From positions 1 to 41,083 of the forward strand of contig JABUTA010000004.1 of the NCBI GenBank assembly GCA_021443845.1: 41,083 nt of DNA, given 5' to 3'. Shown piece by piece: positions 9,415-41,083 of the stretch; position 1 is the first letter of the stretch; every line of letters starts with the position of its first letter. The DNA comes from Parasporobacterium sp. GTDB taxonomy: Bacteria > Bacillota > Clostridia > Lachnospirales > Lachnospiraceae. Below the pieces are notes generated by a model. It was not told where the DNA came from. It saw nothing but the letters and a program-made list of their open reading frames with translations, and did not search any database. A program made the position numbers and the translations under genes.

Positions 9415-10014
9415 TTAAATCGGGACAGTTGTCAGCACCGCCCGGCAGGGTGCACCGTCAAAGCCTGCCAGTTTAAGAGGTGCGGCATATAAAATATACT
9501 TTCCTTCTGGAACTTCATCCAGGCATATGCCCTCCAGAATGACAACCTCCTTTTCCAGGAGAATCCTGTGCACCTTCATAGGGGCGTCCTCCGGTCCTAC
9601 TGTCTGGGATTCATTTCCCAGAAGTAATATGCCTGCCTGCACAAATGCCTGTGCCGCAGCTTCACTTACAACTGCATTGCCTTTAATAAGAATTCGTTTG
9701 TCGCATCCGTCTCCGGCAGCTGCCGCCTGCTGCAGTATTTCGGCTGCACCCTCAGCATTCACTGTTCCTGTGTGTTCTGCCACATATGCGGGACCGATTA
9801 CTGAATCCAGGGGAATCTTTTCTATAGTCTTACCACCATCAATAAAATGATATGGTGCGTCAATGTGGGTCCCGTTATGGGCGCACATGCTGAAAGCAGA
9901 CAGATTGCATGGGCTGCCTTCTGAAATACGCATCAAGGTTTCTTTCTTCGGTGCCGGATCTCCCGGATACACTCTGCAGGATAAAATTTCCTGTGAAATA
10001 TCATATATCTTCAT
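9415..10014 (-). CDS. cyclase-family (kynurenine-formamidase-like) metal-dependent hydrolase
   Basis: Motif HNGTHIDAPYHF (HxGTHxDxPxH) typical of the cyclase family; N-terminus MKIYDISQEI...YPGDP. Confidence 0.82.
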   Translation of the reverse strand: MKIYDISQEILSCRVYPGDPAPKKETLMRISEGSPCNLSAFSMCAHNGTHIDAPYHFIDGGKTIEKIPLDSVIGPAYVAEHTGTVNAEGAAEILQQAAAAGDGCDKRILIKGNAVVSEAAAQAFVQAGILLLGNESQTVGPEDAPMKVHRILLEKEVVILEGICLDEVPEGKYILYAAPLKLAGFDGAPCRAVLTTVPI

Positions 10015-10109: not shown

Positions 10110-10294
10110 TTTTATCGTATAAGGCCACGGAATGCTTCGCAGCTTCGCTGCTTACGCATTCCTGCGGTACTCGTGCTCCCGGTCCTACGGACCTTCGCAC
10201 TCGTGCCGCTTGGCGTCGCTAAAGCCCCCCTCACAGCATTCTGAGCGAGCTCAATGCTGTGAGGGGGCTTTGCGACTGGCCTTATACGATAAAA
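10110..10294 (-). repeat. structured element, copy 1 (terminal 18-bp inverted repeats, three internal hairpins)
   Basis: Perfect terminal arms TTTTATCGTATAAGGCCA (10110-10127)/TGGCCTTATACGATAAAA (10277-10294). Minus-strand internal hairpins: long stem capped by GAGCTCGCTC, GCGG..GTGC-GAA-GGTCC-GTA-GGACC..GCAC..CCGC, and GGAATGC-GTAA-GCAGC-GAA-GCTGC-GAA-GCATTCC. Shares architecture with 40881-41064. Confidence 0.8.
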
Positions 10295-10363
10295 ACACCG
10301 ACCACAACCCGAAGTCATGACCGGTGCCTTTGGCAATAATTATGAAATTGGAATACTTATCGA

Positions 10364-11383
10364 TTATTTTGTGATAAGTTCTGAGAAGTATCTGATTGTT
10401 CTGCACATGTTAGATGTGAATGAGCTTTCATTGTCATACCATGAAACAACCTGTACTTCTGTCTTTCCGTCACCAGCTTTGATTACGCTTGTCTGTGTAG
10501 CGTCGAAAAGTGATGCATATGACATACCGATGATATCACTTGAAACGATCTGATCTTCGTTATATCCGAAAGATTCGTTGCTGTACTTCTTCATCTGAGC
10601 GTTGATCTGATCAACTGTAACTTCACCGTCAACAACTGCTGTAAGGATTGTTGTAGAACCTGTTGCTACAGGAACTCTCTGTGCAGCGCCGATGAGCTTG
10701 CCGTTAAGTTCAGGAATAACAAGACCGATAGCCTTAGCTGCGCCTGTTGAGTTAGGAACGATATTAACTGCTGCTGCACGTCCTCTTCTCTGGTCACCTT
10801 TTCTGTGTGGTCCGTCAAGGATCATCTGATCGCCTGTGTAAGCGTGGATGGTCATCATGATACCTGACTGGATAGGTGCAAGGTCATTGAGTGCCTTAGC
10901 CATAGGTGCTAAGCAGTTTGTTGTGCATGATGCTGCAGAGATGATATCGTCTTCAGCTGTAAGTGTGTTGTGGTTTGTATTGAAAACAACTGTAGGAAGG
11001 TCATTTCCTGCCGGAGCAGAGATGATAACTTTTCTTGCACCTGCAGTAATGTGAGCCTGTGCTTTTGCCTTTGATGTGTAGAAACCTGTGCATTCAAGAA
11101 CTACGTCTACATCAAGTTCGCCCCAGGGAAGCTTGGAAGCATCTGCTTCTTTGTAGATTTCGATTTCTGTACCGTCAACGATGATTGAGTGGTCAGTGTT
11201 TGAAACCTTGTCAGCAAGTGCGTAACGTCCCTGTGTTGAATCATACTTAAGAAGGTATGCAAGCATTTCAGGGCTTGTAAGGTCATTGATAGCTACGATT
11301 TCATATTCAGCATCACCAAACATCTTTCTGAATGCTAAACGTCCGATACGGCCAAAACCGTTGATTGCAACTTTTACTCCCAT
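10364..11383 (-). CDS. gap: type I glyceraldehyde-3-phosphate dehydrogenase
   Basis: [17 protein letters not shown], active site [34 protein letters not shown]. Confidence 0.95.
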
Positions 11384-20537: not shown

Positions 20538-21653
20538 TCATTTAAACAGAACATCCTTAAACACATACCATGAATGCGGAACAACCTGGTCTGTATGTGA
20601 AAATTCAGATACTGCAAAGCAGAAGTTGTTAACCCCGGTGTCGGTACCATATGAATATGTTTCCGGATGGGCGTAGAACTGCTGAAGCTGAGGAATCATG
20701 TTCTGTCCTGCCCCGTCTTCTTCACCTCCCGATGTTGCAAATATGAAGAAATCCAGATCACTGTTAGCAGTCACTGTCTCATTGATATATTCAAAGGCTT
20801 CCTCAGGAGAAAAATAATCAATTCCGTTTCCCAGAACCATATTTTCCGGGCAGATATTCGCACTCATCGGCATGAAGTACTTAAAATACTCAAAATCATT
20901 ATGTATGATATTCCATGTACATACAGATCCTCTGGAATATCCGCAGAATGCCCTGTGATCCCTGCTTGCCTTTATGCCCTCAGGGCTGAAGTCTTCACAG
21001 TAAACATTATATCTGCTTTCTATCTGAGGTATCAGATCCTCTACTATCTCCTTGTAATAGTTCCCCGGAATGCCTTCGTAGCGCCCGTCACCTGCGGGAA
21101 TCGAGCCGTCTGCAATGAATTTTGTTTTCTCGTTAAGGTCAAAATAGTAAGTGGGTGATATGATAATGAATGGTTCCATAGCCTGATGGTCAGGATCAAA
21201 GAGGTTGTCAACCATCTGCTTCGGAATCATCCCCTGTGTATAACGTTCCCATAACTGGTTAGGAGAATTCTGATTGCCGTGCTGGAAGTACAGCACATTA
21301 TATTTTTTCTCCTTATCATCCTGGTCATATCCGTACGGAAGATAAACAGTAACATATTTCTGATAGGTTACACCGTCCTCATAAACATCTGTTTCATAAA
21401 ACAGTTTCTCAATAGTACCCTTATGCTCAGTCGGATAATTCTCATACCCCTCCGGCATAACAGCAAAAACCGTCTGTGTCCCCTCAAAAATATCATCATG
21501 CACTACATATTCTTCAGTTTCAAAATCATACACCCTGTTGGAATCTGCTTCCTTTTTTCCTCCTCTTGCAGGTCTTGTGGCTGCTGAAACATTAATTGAA
21601 GCAGCTATCACAAATACAAGCATCAGGCACGAAATGCTTCTAATCTTTTTCAT
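20538..21653 (-). CDS. secreted alpha/beta-hydrolase esterase (CE1/esterase-D-like), paralog 4
   Basis: Start reset to the ATG at 21653; signal peptide MKKIRSISCLMLVFVIAASINVSA; nucleophile elbow CGYSRGSVC; VTVYLPYGYDQ...YNVLYFQHG. Confidence 0.82.
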   Translation of the reverse strand: MKKIRSISCLMLVFVIAASINVSAATRPARGGKKEADSNRVYDFETEEYVVHDDIFEGTQTVFAVMPEGYENYPTEHKGTIEKLFYETDVYEDGVTYQKYVTVYLPYGYDQDDKEKKYNVLYFQHGNQNSPNQLWERYTQGMIPKQMVDNLFDPDHQAMEPFIIISPTYYFDLNEKTKFIADGSIPAGDGRYEGIPGNYYKEIVEDLIPQIESRYNVYCEDFSPEGIKASRDHRAFCGYSRGSVCTWNIIHNDFEYFKYFMPMSANICPENMVLGNGIDYFSPEEAFEYINETVTANSDLDFFIFATSGGEEDGAGQNMIPQLQQFYAHPETYSYGTDTGVNNFCFAVSEFSHTDQVVPHSWYVFKDVLFK

Positions 21654-21690
21654 AATCCAATTATGCCTTTCAATATTAATGAAATTATTG

Positions 21691-21725
21691 TTAAAGGCTG
21701 CCGCACGTATATGCAGCAGCCTTTG
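21691..21725 (-). terminator. stem-loop between esterase genes
   Basis: AAAGGCTGC/GCAGCCTTT stem with T-rich flanks. Confidence 0.55.
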
Positions 21726-21782
21726 TTTTAAATGATCGCTCTGTTCTGAGAATACTGCTTCAGACTGCATTTATAGTTCTTA

Positions 21783-22796
21783 TTATCTGAACCATACCAG
21801 CATGCTGTTGTACAGGTCTACGATCCAGCAGTTGTATGCATGTGAGCCACCCTTGAAATCGATCCAGCAGAAGTTCTTTCCATCCTGGAACCAGTCAGGC
21901 ATTTCAGCAAGTATGCCATGTGCAAACTCGTCATGCTCATCATGTGCAATATCTGTTGTTCCGTTGCCGTTGTACATGTAAAGTATCGGATAGTCAGGTC
22001 CGAAGCTTTCTACTGCAGCCTTGAAGTCGGCAACTTCTGTCTTGGCACCTGAGTATGCGCCGAACCAGCCTACTATATCAAGGTTGTTCATCATTATTGC
22101 ATTGATAGTGCAGATAGAGCCCATTGAGAAGCCGCAGAATGCTCTGTGATCTCTTGTTGCCTTAAGGTTTTCTTCACTTACATCACCTTTAGCATAGGTT
22201 GAATATGTGCTGTCGATAAGAGGAACGATAATCTCACGGAACTCCTTTGCAAATGCATCAGTGTCATAATTCGGAACATTGTTGTATGTTGTAACACTTG
22301 TAGGTGCAACAAAGATAGTAGGCTCAATCTTTTCATCTTTCAGCATGTTATCAACAACTGCTTTAGTGGTCTTGCCCATGGCCTTTGTGCCTTCGTATAC
22401 CGGTTCATCGTTCAGCCAGTAATACTCGCTTTCACCGCCTCCGTGCATAAGATACACAACATTGTATGTCTGTGACGGGTCATATCCGTAAGGAAGATAT
22501 ACCTGAAGTGTCTTTTCTACTTCCTTATCCTCGCCGAATGCATAAGCAGGAGTTGTGTATGTAAGTGTTTCGAGGGTACCTGTTTCATCAATCTGCTTGG
22601 TGTACTTTTCCTTCAGAGGAATTCTTGTGATAAAAGCTGCTTCGTATTTGCCGCATTCACAGATTCCGTCTGTAAATACATGCTCGTGCTTTTCTTCCTC
22701 TGCCATTGCAGCCTGAGAAAACATTCCCACTGCCATTACCGATACAGCTGCAAATACAGCTATACGTTTAAATAATCCTTTTTTCATATATTCCAT
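21783..22796 (-). CDS. secreted esterase (CE1/esterase-D-like), paralog 3
   Basis: Signal peptide, HEHVFTDGICECGKYE, YNVVYLMHGGGESEYYW, CGFSMGSIC nucleophile elbow, FKGGSHAYNCWIVDLYNSMLVWFR. Confidence 0.87.
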   Translation of the reverse strand: MEYMKKGLFKRIAVFAAVSVMAVGMFSQAAMAEEEKHEHVFTDGICECGKYEAAFITRIPLKEKYTKQIDETGTLETLTYTTPAYAFGEDKEVEKTLQVYLPYGYDPSQTYNVVYLMHGGGESEYYWLNDEPVYEGTKAMGKTTKAVVDNMLKDEKIEPTIFVAPTSVTTYNNVPNYDTDAFAKEFREIIVPLIDSTYSTYAKGDVSEENLKATRDHRAFCGFSMGSICTINAIMMNNLDIVGWFGAYSGAKTEVADFKAAVESFGPDYPILYMYNGNGTTDIAHDEHDEFAHGILAEMPDWFQDGKNFCWIDFKGGSHAYNCWIVDLYNSMLVWFR

Positions 22797-22926
22797 TCTC
22801 CTTTTTTATCCGGCCCCTTTGCCGGAGTTATTCATAATAAATTTAAGACATATTCACAGTCTGCTATTTGACCCCTGTCAGCATGCTATAATGCTGCCGA
22901 TAGCCAGGCAGTTTCTGAAACGTCTG

Positions 22927-23964
22927 CTATTTGAACCATACCAGCATGCTGTTGTACAGATCCACTATCCAGCAGTTATATGCATGTGAGCCGCCCTTGA
23001 ATTCTATCCAGCAGGTGTTCTTTCCGTTCTGGAAATGCTCCGGAAGTTTTTCAAGCAATGCATTGTAGAATTCCTGATGGCCTTCAAGTGCAAAGTCTGC
23101 AGAGCCGTTGCCGTTGTACATATAAAGTACAGGATATTCTGTGATGACATCTTTTATTGCTTCAATAACACCGTCCGGATCTGATGTAGCGCCTGAGTAC
23201 GGACCGAAATATCCTACGATATCCAGGTTATGCTTAAGTATGCCGTTAACTGTGCAGCCTGCTCCCATGGAAAATCCGCAGAATGCTCTGTGATTTCTGG
23301 TAGCCTTAAGGTTTTCCTCGCTTACATCTCCCTTTGTGTATGTAGAGTATTTGCTTTCTACCAGAGGAACAATGATATTACGGAATTCCTTTGCATATGC
23401 ATCGTTATCATTTACCGACTCTTCACCGTTCTTTGACAGGCAGGTGGTTGCAACATAGATAGTAGGCTCTGTCTTTCCGTCTTTAAGCATGTTGTCAACA
23501 ACAGCCTTTGTGGTCTTTCCCATAGCTTTGGTATCTTCGTAAACAGGCTCATCATTCAGCCAGTAATATTCGCTTTCACCGCCGCCATGCATAAGGTATA
23601 CAACATTATAGGACTGTGACTCATCATACCCGTACGGAAGGTACACCTGCATAACCTTTTCAACTTCCTGAGTCTCGTCAAATGCGTAAAGCGGTGTTGT
23701 GTAGGTGATTGTTTCAAGCGTTCCTTTTTCATCAATTTCTTTTGTATACTTTTCTTTTAACGGAATTCTTGTAACAAATGACGCCTCATACTTACCGCAC
23801 TCGCAGATGCCGTCCGTAAACACATGCTCGTGCTTTGTTTCTTCCTCTGCCATTGCTGATGCGGATAACATAGTGACCGCCATTGCCGATGCAAGTACCG
23901 TCATACATATACGTTTCACAAAACCTTTCTTCATCTTTTCCTCTCCTTTCAACAAAATTTTCAA
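22927..23964 (-). CDS. secreted esterase (CE1/esterase-D-like), paralog 2
   Basis: Close paralog: HEHVFTDGICECGKYE, CGFSMGAGC, FKGGSHAYNCWIVDLYNSMLVWFK. Confidence 0.87.
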   Translation of the reverse strand: MKILLKGEEKMKKGFVKRICMTVLASAMAVTMLSASAMAEEETKHEHVFTDGICECGKYEASFVTRIPLKEKYTKEIDEKGTLETITYTTPLYAFDETQEVEKVMQVYLPYGYDESQSYNVVYLMHGGGESEYYWLNDEPVYEDTKAMGKTTKAVVDNMLKDGKTEPTIYVATTCLSKNGEESVNDNDAYAKEFRNIIVPLVESKYSTYTKGDVSEENLKATRNHRAFCGFSMGAGCTVNGILKHNLDIVGYFGPYSGATSDPDGVIEAIKDVITEYPVLYMYNGNGSADFALEGHQEFYNALLEKLPEHFQNGKNTCWIEFKGGSHAYNCWIVDLYNSMLVWFK

Positions 23965-24010
23965 TGTAACACCTGGCTGTACAACATTATTTTTAAGAGA
24001 TTACATCCCA

Positions 24011-25048
24011 TTATTTAAAGAACACCAGCAAGCTGTCATACAGATCCACGATCCAGCAGTTGTATGCATGTGAGCCACCCTTAAACTCGATCCATGCATA
24101 GTTTGCACCGTCCTGGAACCAGTCAGGCATATTTGCCAGAACTTCCTGGTTGAAATTCCAGTGAGCGTCACGGACAAAGTCGGCTGTGCCGTCACCGTTG
24201 AACCAGTAATTTACAGGGTAATCTTTTCCGAAGCTTTCGAGAGCTGCCTGGAAGTCAGCAGGTGTATACGGAAATACTTCAGCACCAAATGCTGCTGAAT
24301 ATGTGCCGAACCATGAGAACATATCGAGGTTAGGCATCATAACCTGTGCAGCTGTAACGGCTCCGCCCATTGAAAAGCCTGCAAATGCACGATGATCACG
24401 GGAAGCTATAAGTCCTGCCTCACTTACATCACCGCCGGCATAGGTTGAATACCTGGATTCAACGAAAGGTACGATGTCATTGCGAAGTTCTTTTGCAAAA
24501 TCGTTGTTATCCACAAACTGGGTTTCTTCTCCCTCCGGAGCCTTTGTGATGCTGGTCACCGATACAAATATGATAGGGTCTGTGATTCCCTGTTTAAGGC
24601 AGTTATCGATAACAGCCTTGGTTGTCTTACCCATTGCCTTTGTTCCCTCATAAACAGGTTCATCGTTCAGCCAGTAATATTCGCTTTCACCTGCACCGTG
24701 GGTCAGATAGAAAATGTTATACTGCTGAGCCGGATCGTACCCGTAAGGAAGGTATACCTGAAGATTCTTCTCAACTGTAACTTCCTCGCCCTTTGCTTCT
24801 TCCAGTGAATATACGTGAGTAGTGTAGGTCAATGTTTCAAGAGTACCTTTTTCTTCAATATCCTTGGTCAGCTTGTCCTTAATGGGAATACGTGAAGAAA
24901 AAGCCACCTCATACTTGCCGCATTCGCAGATACCGTTATTAAATACATGCTCGTGTTTTCCTTCTTCGGCACCTGTGAGCATGGGGGTGCAAAGACACAC
25001 TGCCAGCACTGCCGCAAGTGCCACTAATGAAACTATTCTTTTTTTCAT
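24011..25048 (-). CDS. secreted esterase (CE1/esterase-D-like), paralog 1
   Basis: Signal peptide, HEHVFNNGICECGKYE, AGFSMGGAV, FKGGSHAYNCWIVDLYDSLLVFFK. Confidence 0.87.
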   Translation of the reverse strand: MKKRIVSLVALAAVLAVCLCTPMLTGAEEGKHEHVFNNGICECGKYEVAFSSRIPIKDKLTKDIEEKGTLETLTYTTHVYSLEEAKGEEVTVEKNLQVYLPYGYDPAQQYNIFYLTHGAGESEYYWLNDEPVYEGTKAMGKTTKAVIDNCLKQGITDPIIFVSVTSITKAPEGEETQFVDNNDFAKELRNDIVPFVESRYSTYAGGDVSEAGLIASRDHRAFAGFSMGGAVTAAQVMMPNLDMFSWFGTYSAAFGAEVFPYTPADFQAALESFGKDYPVNYWFNGDGTADFVRDAHWNFNQEVLANMPDWFQDGANYAWIEFKGGSHAYNCWIVDLYDSLLVFFK

Positions 25049-38523: not shown

Positions 38524-40767
38524 TTATCTGGATACAACAATACGGAGTCCCATTTCTGTGGTGCCGTTTTCCGGGCAGAGAACATATTCATAGATTTCCA
38601 GCTCGCCGCCGGCAGTATTCGGCTCAATCCTGCTGGATACAGCCTCTGTTGAAAGAATCGTATATCCTTCAGTCGGGATAAGCTTGTAATATACATTTCC
38701 GTCAATGTAATTCTGTCTCTTAACGGTTACAGCCCTGGAATCAAGTTCGCCGTCTTCTGTCATTGCCACAAATGAATATTTAACGTTTCCGTAGGTCTGC
38801 CCTGCATCGCAGATACCGTTGTCAATTACTTCTATGGCAGTAGAGTCAACAACTATTGTAATATTGCCCTGGTTATATGTTCCGTCTTCATATGCTTTTC
38901 CGCCGATGGTAAGAGCCTTAACCGTTACGGTTACAGGGGCTGCTGCTGTGATATCTGTCAGATTATCTGCTGCCAGTGCATTCAGATATCCGTCTCCTGT
39001 TACTGTCCATTTAGCATTCTTAAGGGTAACATTGATCGGATTGTTCAGCACAGGAGCTGCTGTGTGCTTATAACGTCCGATGAGCTTGCAGTCCTGTGTA
39101 TATCCGCCTTTTTCAGCCAGGTAGTTGCAGTGGTCATATTCCTTTGATCCCATGAAAGCATTGAGAACCGTGCCGTTTGGTACAAGATTTCCTTCAAGGT
39201 CAACATGAACATATGTTGTGGAAGAAACTGTTCCTTCATACTCTGCATTTTCCACTGTTACGTTAAGGTTCTGCTTATAATTGTAGATGCAGTTGTAGAT
39301 ATTGCCCTTGTAAGAACCGTTCTTCATGGTAAATGAAGAATCATTTACGGAGCTGTTTGTAGCAACTGCCTCCTCTGAGTGGTCATTGATAGTGTATGTA
39401 AGGATACCCGGATTGCCTGCATCATCTGATTCAACCAGCTCGCAGAGGATTCCTGTGTCACGGGTAGATGTCCCTGAGAAGTTTACCTCTGTACTGTCAA
39501 GAACCATGTTTGCAAAACCGGTATTTGCAGCCCCTGACTTGATCTGGAGCAATGAATCTACAGTATTGATCTTTGTGTTTTCAAATGTGAATGTACCCCC
39601 TGAGGTCTGCTGTGACATGAAAGCTGTATGTCCTGCATTAAGCACGGAATTCCTATAATCAGAGCCTGTATTGCCCGAACCCATGATCTGGATAAAGTCA
39701 GGTGACCAGAATTCAACATTGTCATAGAAATTGTGAACGCCTGAGTCTGCGTAGGTTACATAGCCTGAGCCCCCAACTGTGAATCCGTACTTAACACCGT
39801 TCATTTCCTTAACTGCGGTGTATTCCTTTCCTTCCTGAGCAATCTCAAGCGTACCGATGCCTGAGAATGTGTCCTTTGCATTGATAGCATATGTGCCGCA
39901 GAGATCATAAGCCGTACCTGAGTCGGTTGACAGGGTTCCCCAGCTGGTGGATACCACGATACAGTTTTCGAAAATACCCTGGCCATCAGCCATAACGTTG
40001 AAGGATCTGATGGTTCCGTCCATACCCAGTGCAAAAGGTACTCTCTTCATCATACCCGGCACCAGATTCTGATATTCTTCATAGGTATCAGGTGTTTCTT
40101 TTGTATAGATAACAGTGTTCTTGACATTTGCGATTGATGTGTTGTCAGCGTAGATAGAGCATCTTGTTGCGCCTTCTGTTTCAATATAACAGTCGCTGAC
40201 ATTCAGCACTGACTTGTTGTCAGCCATAAGCAGAGTGCCCCAGCCGGACAGGTCATCACCGCCGTCACCGTATCCGTAGAACTTTGAGTTGGTGATAGTA
40301 TATTCAGAACCGTTATCTACGAGGATACCGTTGAAATGTCCGCCTCCGGAAACCAGCGTGATTCCATCTGCAGACTTATCATCATATCTGCCCCCTGTGA
40401 TGATCTGTTTTACTGAGTAATCGTCTTCAATTTTTCCTTCATTTACCAGCAGTGCCTGACGGAAATAGTATGTAGCTTTTTCCTCATCCTTTGCATTGAG
40501 CCACGGAGCGGCAGAAGGTCCGGCTTTTCTGTAAACCTTTGTAGATACTATTTCGAAGCTGTCCTTAACCTCATAAGATCTGCCCCCAATAAGGTCCTTC
40601 TGGGCACCGTCAACTACCAGAACCAGAACTTCACCCTCGCCTGCAGTCCTGCATTCAGCCTTACCGTCCACAGCATATTCTGCAGCAGTCACAGTAGAAG
40701 CAATACCTGTAGCATTATAGTCATTAACCAACGATGTTCTTATAATGTCTAATTTCATTATTATCAT
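38524..40767 (-). CDS. leaderless right-handed beta-helix-like repeat protein, hypothetical
   Basis: Long Thr/Asn/Gly-rich repetitive strand pattern (GILVDNGSEYTITNSKFYGYGDGG, LMADNKSVLNVSDCYIETEG, SIYADNTSIANVKNTVIYTKE); no signal peptide visible. Confidence 0.65.
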   Translation of the reverse strand: MIIMKLDIIRTSLVNDYNATGIASTVTAAEYAVDGKAECRTAGEGEVLVLVVDGAQKDLIGGRSYEVKDSFEIVSTKVYRKAGPSAAPWLNAKDEEKATYYFRQALLVNEGKIEDDYSVKQIITGGRYDDKSADGITLVSGGGHFNGILVDNGSEYTITNSKFYGYGDGGDDLSGWGTLLMADNKSVLNVSDCYIETEGATRCSIYADNTSIANVKNTVIYTKETPDTYEEYQNLVPGMMKRVPFALGMDGTIRSFNVMADGQGIFENCIVVSTSWGTLSTDSGTAYDLCGTYAINAKDTFSGIGTLEIAQEGKEYTAVKEMNGVKYGFTVGGSGYVTYADSGVHNFYDNVEFWSPDFIQIMGSGNTGSDYRNSVLNAGHTAFMSQQTSGGTFTFENTKINTVDSLLQIKSGAANTGFANMVLDSTEVNFSGTSTRDTGILCELVESDDAGNPGILTYTINDHSEEAVATNSSVNDSSFTMKNGSYKGNIYNCIYNYKQNLNVTVENAEYEGTVSSTTYVHVDLEGNLVPNGTVLNAFMGSKEYDHCNYLAEKGGYTQDCKLIGRYKHTAAPVLNNPINVTLKNAKWTVTGDGYLNALAADNLTDITAAAPVTVTVKALTIGGKAYEDGTYNQGNITIVVDSTAIEVIDNGICDAGQTYGNVKYSFVAMTEDGELDSRAVTVKRQNYIDGNVYYKLIPTEGYTILSTEAVSSRIEPNTAGGELEIYEYVLCPENGTTEMGLRIVVSR

Positions 40768-40880
40768 CCGCCTTTCCCATAAAAATATAAATATATATCA
40801 AATTGCCATTAAGTCTCCGAAAACATCATATACAAAGTCAAGAGTAAATACCAGTAAATTGGTATAAAATATTCATGAAT

Positions 40881-41064
40881 ATTTTACAAGCCACGAGTCA
40901 AAACGCCGGAATTGACAGCCGGGAGCTTGCTCACGGATGAAAATTCCAGCGTTTTTGACGACGGCAGGAAATGAGCACGAAGGGATGGAACATCCCGAAA
41001 GTGCGAATTCCTGCAGGGATGCGAAAGCAGCGCCAGCTGCGAAGCAGCCCGTGGCTTGTAAAAT
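40881..41064 (+). repeat. structured element, copy 2 (terminal 15-bp inverted repeats, three internal hairpins)
   Basis: ATTTTACAAGCCACG (40881-40895)/CGTGGCTTGTAAAAT (41050-41064). Internal: GTCAAAACGC..GCGTTTTTGAC with inner GGAATT/AATTCC; GCAGGAA..GCAC-GAA-GGGATG-GAA-CATCCC-GAAA-GTGC-GAA-TTCCTGC; GGGATGC-GAAA-GCAGC-GCCA-GCTGC-GAA-GCAGCCC. Confidence 0.8.
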
Positions 41065-41083
41065 GCCATCCTTTTGACGACGG

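Follow-up and report, generated by a model that had tools for sequence, protein, structure and literature searches.

Two structured elements of about 185 bp, some 30 kb apart and in opposite orientations, lie in a 41,083-nucleotide stretch of DNA from a Parasporobacterium sp. of the Lachnospiraceae (contig JABUTA010000004.1 of assembly GCA_021443845.1; the whole stretch is called the window here). They had been picked out from sequence as the possible products of selection for a folded RNA or, alternatively, as a hairpin-based mobile element. The question that they raise is thus what the repeat is, how it reached its positions and why copies of it should be kept there.

Identity and surroundings of the window elements

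Both elements are present as described, with respect to position and to relative orientation. The original prediction did not recognise a named RNA family, and here comparison with Rfam decided otherwise: both match Clostridiales-1 RNA (RF01699) over the full model (cmscan, model positions 1-166) with 100 and 84.2 bits, the Rfam gathering cut-off for membership being 48 bits. An unknown RNA family is therefore rejected, which removes the novelty of the element and leaves its structure standing. The original description reports the family from Clostridiales and the human gut, and treats it as a probable RNA that is unlikely to be cis-regulatory or a riboswitch (Weinberg et al. 2010, PMC2864571). 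In the literature searched, which lay mostly outside subscription journals, no other description of Clostridiales-1 and no report of its mobility was found. The features of the two copies and their neighbours are as follows.

10120..10284, minus strand: copy 1, Clostridiales-1 RNA (RF01699), full length (cmscan 100 bits, model 1-166)
10111..10293, minus strand: copy 1 with its extended closing helix P1 (predicted fold)
10293-10277 paired with 10127-10111, minus strand: P1 of copy 1, 17 bp, UUUAUCGUAUAAGGCCA/UGGCCUUAUACGAUAAA (predicted fold)
10215..10276, minus strand: hairpin P2 of copy 1, cap G(CUCG)C (predicted fold)
10164..10209, minus strand: hairpin P3 of copy 1, GA-rich internal loops (predicted fold)
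10129..10162, minus strand: hairpin P4 of copy 1, GUAA/GAA internal loop (predicted fold)
10291..10330, minus strand: terminator-like hairpin and T-run after gapA (sequence, by eye)
10364..11383, minus strand: gapA (glyceraldehyde-3-phosphate dehydrogenase), sense neighbour upstream of copy 1 (PF02800/PF00044)
9415..10014, minus strand: putative cyclase gene, sense neighbour downstream of copy 1 (PF04199)
40886..41059, plus strand: copy 2, Clostridiales-1 RNA (RF01699), full length (cmscan 84.2 bits)
40880..41065, plus strand: copy 2 with its extended P1, 40880-40894 with 41051-41065, 15 bp (predicted fold)
40897-40959, 40964-41014 and 41016-41050, plus strand: hairpins P2, P3 and P4 of copy 2 (predicted fold)
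41070..41083, plus strand: CCTTTTGACGACGG, probable beginning of a further tandem unit, truncated at the contig end (motif recurs at the P2/P3 junction of copy 2)

Copy 1 is preceded by the terminator-like hairpin of gapA, the T-run of which enters the 5' strand of P1; a similar hairpin, judged by eye, follows gapA in the sister genome G009, where the element is absent. A promoter-like box separates copy 1 from the next, cyclase-like gene. With a terminator-like hairpin in front and a promoter-like box behind, transcription of copy 1 is uncertain and may occur by read-through alone. The sole known neighbour of copy 2 is a divergent gene about 119 nt away. At the other side of copy 2, the final 14 nt of the window (41070-41083) resemble its P2/P3 junction, and the contig end probably falls inside a tandem second unit, since the junction motif recurs and tandem copies are common in relatives.

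A conserved four-helix fold

Folded as RNA, copy 1 (10110-10294, minus strand) reaches -114.4 kcal/mol (z -13.7) and copy 2 (40876-41070, plus strand) -94.7 kcal/mol (z -10.4), values attained by none of 200 shuffles in either case. The two predicted folds share the anticipated layout of an outer helix and three hairpins: a closing helix P1, a long P2, P3 with internal loops and P4 with a GNAA/GAA internal loop, P2 being capped by G(CUYG)C in both window copies. The outer helix is longer than had been noted, and longer than in the Rfam model, reaching 17 bp and 15 bp in copies 1 and 2, respectively. The third hairpin is likewise paired, albeit with one A-G mismatch in the strands of copy 2 (GGGATGC/GCAGCCC).

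That the helices covary, originally proposed from the two window copies, holds in a set of 38 diverse, mutually related copies, for which RNAalifold predicts 20 pairs that all (20/20) vary on both sides. Standard pairs fill 94.8% of the cells of these 20 pairs, compared to 68.6% after shuffling and 27-47% in slid controls, which flatter the result since the structure was predicted from the very alignment on which it was tested, the margin being large all the same. Selection for a folded RNA is thus supported by covariation. The usual P2 cap across the family is G(CUUG)C, and since the CUUG tetraloop is stable as an RNA loop, the folded form would more probably be RNA than DNA.

The mobile form of the family

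Alignment of the flanks of 167 copies revealed that the Rfam match in several genera forms the left portion, and most, of an element with a total length of 185-212 bp, a form found in many Lachnospiraceae. This form begins with TGATACCAGGGTCAAAAGG and ends with CCTTTTGACCCCAACATCA, which constitute 19-nt terminal inverted repeats (TIRs) in several genera, and it inserts at a TA[TWWTA]TA-like target; exact 5-bp direct repeats flank 19 of the 35 full-ended copies (mean 1.4, maximum 6 in 2000 shuffles). Perfect duplications and the same ends recur in named genomes, among them Muricomes intestini, Lachnoclostridium sp. An14 and Clostridiaceae bacterium 1XD21-72, and the RF01699 matches of these genomes are located inside TIR elements. 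Short derivatives of about 70-105 bp exist, some of them with target-site duplications (TSDs), and tandem units occur too. At the level of the family the repeat is short, non-coding and multicopy, with terminal inverted repeats and a 5-bp TSD; judged from these sequence features, Clostridiales-1 is a MITE-type repeat, the body of which is a four-helix structured RNA.

The suspicion of a MITE-like element is therefore borne out for the family by TIRs, 5-bp TSDs and empty sites, but not for the window copies themselves, which have the closing helix P1 only, neither full inverted repeats nor a TSD having been seen. No clean empty site was found for them, the gene order behind gapA being different in all relatives compared. 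Because their own ends lack a full TIR and TSD and synteny breaks behind gapA, it is from the relatives that we infer the window copies to be resident descendants of insertions.

Duplications together with inverted repeats point to a transposase of the DDE type. A search of five genomes and the named loci for TIR pairs 0.6-8 kb apart, with ends allowed to differ by up to 2-5 mismatches, yielded no autonomous transposon with the same ends; the sole long TIR pairs, G020:C65 and L271, have ordinary genes of housekeeping type between them and were rejected as autonomous partners. No copies of the exact left end were found in viral contigs. E. coli REPs, which are about 35 nt long, are linked to RAYT (Y1) transposases, and the original prediction had considered a single-strand transposon. 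A hairpin-rich element with REP-like, stop-proximal placement would suit such a mode of movement, be it as a single-strand hairpin transposon or as a RAYT-dependent REP, and 30 of the 61 relatives possess Y1_Tnp genes. It is nonetheless contradicted by the TIRs and 5-bp TSDs and by the genomes G015 and G006, which have about 30 and five copies, respectively, and no Y1_Tnp match. Among the relatives Y1_Tnp genes do not correlate with copy number, and dependence on RAYT/Y1 is rejected; movement by a Y1 transposase is disfavoured as very improbable. Clostridiales-1, with its approximately 165 nt and four helices, thus differs from REPs also in not requiring Y1 genes, and the RAYT (Y1_Tnp) association characteristic of REP/BIME elements was not found for it.

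Two variants deserve mention. The TIR-type elements L295 (4364-4611, 248 bp) and L313 (246 bp), from two Lachnospiraceae isolates, have P3 and P4 separated by an extra palindrome (GGGCACT...CGTCC..GGACG...AGTGCC), which may be another small repeat nested within the first. At L226 (G342:C18:4212 and 12297) two copies 8 kb apart each follow an identical terminator and are flanked on either side by GCGT; this may be a direct repeat of 4 bp, unlike the 5-bp duplication seen with the TIR form.

Distribution, gain and loss

RF01699 is carried by at least 18 of 393 Clostridia genomes (at most seven candidates were scored per genome), mostly of the window's own family; about 14 of the 20 same-family genomes listed are carriers, with few elsewhere in the class. 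The source genome holds seven Clostridiales-1 copies above the cut-off and two weaker ones, and across 61 related genomes the number ranges erratically from 0 to about 35. Copy 2 is situated at a contig end (window 40500-41083), as are many copies in relatives; the repeat breaks assemblies, and such copy numbers are consequently lower bounds. A Butyrivibrio fibrisolvens plasmid (NZ_CP146964.1, 63122-63304) has three places resembling the element.

Turnover between sister species is apparent in the genus g49 at a locus between two genes assigned by eye, from sequence, as nspC and lys1. Three genomes have the full element there (G386, G482, G083), G478 and G460 have P1 and P2 alone, G455 has a P1 remnant, and no element is found in G479 (the flanks of which are 92-96% identical), G476, G356, G450, G451, G475 and G464. 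Read in this way, the empty and decayed sites represent gain or loss of the element, and some of the empty ones could be losses given the remnants in sister species. Where the element is missing, nspC and lys1 overlap by ATGA. A comparison of L248 with L245 illustrates the difference: the element-bearing pair is separated and has a new ribosome-binding site, in place of the ATGA overlap. Species with and without the element at nspC-lys1 offer a natural test of translational coupling.

Orientation and placement next to genes

Copies were classed by the mismatches of their left end to the mobile left end, the diverged class corresponding to the window type. Between co-directional genes, called by a simple ORF rule, the ratio of sense to antisense copies is 23:10 at four or fewer mismatches, 21:5 at five to seven and 47:2 at eight or more. 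With the named genomes added it is 56:39 for near-mobile and 64:6 for diverged copies (Fisher p 2.5e-6), bearing in mind that the copies are partly orthologous, hence not all independent, and that the genomes supplying the young class differ in part from those supplying the old one. An upstream sense stop codon lies within about 15 nt of the start in 51 of 91 diverged copies, and of the 41 copies in gaps of 80 nt or longer, 22 abut the stop, where 4.2 would be expected if placement were uniform but kept clear of the 20 nt ahead of the next gene. The sense bias and the stop placement were seen first in 87 clusters and recurred in a further set of 65 that came mostly from other genomes, the split by divergence having been made after both sets had been seen. 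By these counts the near-mobile copies have no clear gene-orientation bias, whereas the diverged ones lie in sense between co-directional genes and often start at the stop codon. Sense hairpins within 15 nt of stop codons, as in REP/BIME elements, are therefore a property of diverged Clostridiales-1 copies; window copy 1, behind its terminator-like hairpin, is unlike the stop-abutting members of this class. Two near-identical copies, G006:C15 and G006:C38 (L103, L102), start precisely where a tRNA gene has its 3' end (GAGTCTCATCTGGGT).

The Rfam type of the family, 'Gene; sRNA', implies a stand-alone gene for a trans-acting sRNA with its own promoter, in agreement with its filing as a probable RNA that is probably not cis-regulatory and with the TATAAT-like boxes immediately left of many copies. 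The box is, however, half of the symmetric TA-rich insertion target and is present at both ends, which accounts for it and leads us to reject a promoter of their own beside the mobile copies. Many copies moreover start inside or at the stop codon of the upstream gene, and copy number is erratic, which makes an sRNA gene improbable.

A more serious contender is a selfish MITE devoid of host function, the placement and orientation of which would reflect tolerated sites, namely the space from a stop codon to the following ribosome-binding site, combined with replication-strand bias. The signs of mobility (TIRs and TSDs) and the presence, absence and decay to P1 remnants between sister species are compatible with this, and the pneumococcal BOX and RUP repeats have been interpreted in the same manner (PMC3049150). 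In G057, the sole genome checked and one with few copies, genes are strongly co-oriented with replication, and strand bias may hence contribute to the orientation bias. Selfishness accounts less well for a bias that is barely present in near-mobile copies and strong in diverged ones, for stop abutment above that of uniform placement sparing 20 nt before the next gene, and for helices that remain paired at an orthologous locus in several species. It is a possible reading rather than a likely one.

The closing helix and the upstream stop codon

In 103 copies that lack the right-end repeat, complementarity of the flanks extends P1 beyond the Rfam model by a mean of 1.76 bp; with shuffled right flanks the mean extension is 0.46 bp and the maximum 0.81 (2000 shuffles). 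The upstream stop codon is often paired into the closing helix of diverged copies. In G157, a 20-bp P1 takes in the end of groEL (ATGATGTAATTCACCAGTTT/AAACTGGTGAATTACATCAT), and the sister G485 has at this site just ATGATGTA and TACATCAT, 12 nt apart. Behind an SDR-type gene in the window's genus, the last sense codons at orthologous copies read GTATGC, GTTTGC and GTCTGC; the changes GTA/GTT/GTC are matched on the 3' strand, which points to P1 pairing kept under vertical descent. Stop-codon strands of P1 may have originated through compensatory change, or the target may have been copied when the element inserted. A bolder proposal builds on this pairing: the structured RNA would travel as a MITE and then be kept as a stop-codon-seated mRNA element, in which the 5' strand of P1 consists of the stop and last codons and co-evolves with them, such that the terminating ribosome would control closure of the RNA and couple upstream translation to the fate of the operon transcript. 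We regard it as speculative and rather unlikely.

A probable MITE-derived repeat of mRNA 3' regions

The explanation that we consider the best, with moderate confidence, is that Clostridiales-1 derives from a MITE and is a REP/BIME-like hairpin repeat, kept in cis within the 3' and intercistronic parts of mRNAs, where it would exert its effect at the level of the mRNA. A MITE-type element with a four-helix RNA body would insert and duplicate 5 bp of a TA-rich target, and the copies subsequently tolerated or useful would be those read in sense in mRNA. The RNA of resident copies would fold behind the terminating ribosome and could act in cis like the E. coli REP/BIME elements: the transcript on either side of it might be protected, processed or insulated. 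Sequence leaves protection, processing, stalling and insulation indistinguishable, and a cis role as such is suggested by the parallel with E. coli REPs near stop codons. Of 496 REPs, 260 lie within 15 nt of a stop codon, and such REPs are reported to stall ribosomes and to bring about mRNA cleavage (Liang, Rudd and Deutscher 2015, as cited in PMC12306157). Both systems are dispersed palindromic repeats near stops, the corresponding number for diverged Clostridiales-1 copies being 51 of 91.

The pneumococcal BOX, a presumed MITE, is a second system that is alike by description: its short repeats are modular, have inverted ends and variable internal modules, and are predicted to fold as RNA (PMC3049150). 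Clostridiales-1 shares these traits. BOX elements are enriched between convergent genes, with about 61% on the leading strand (PMC3049150); unlike BOX, the diverged Clostridiales-1 copies lie mostly in sense between co-directional genes and are not concentrated between convergent ones.

Compared with the RF01699 record, the four-helix layout and the CUUG-type P2 cap are the same, whereas the longer P1, the MITE form with TIRs and TSDs, the stop-codon placement and the sense bias of diverged copies were not found described there. What is new here is the genome-wide picture: MITE form, TSDs, stop-codon placement and the sense bias of diverged copies. A family catalogued in 2010 without a function is hereby interpreted as a probable MITE-derived stop-codon repeat of gut and rumen Lachnospiraceae, an account that would explain the origin of the element and its erratic copy number. 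If correct, it would give REP elements a Gram-positive counterpart based on a larger, unrelated RNA. Elsewhere in the window, four neighbouring genes for secreted esterase-like proteins (20538-25048, minus strand) include three with a KHEHVFTDGICECGKYE-like N-terminal segment and are apparently tandem duplicates.
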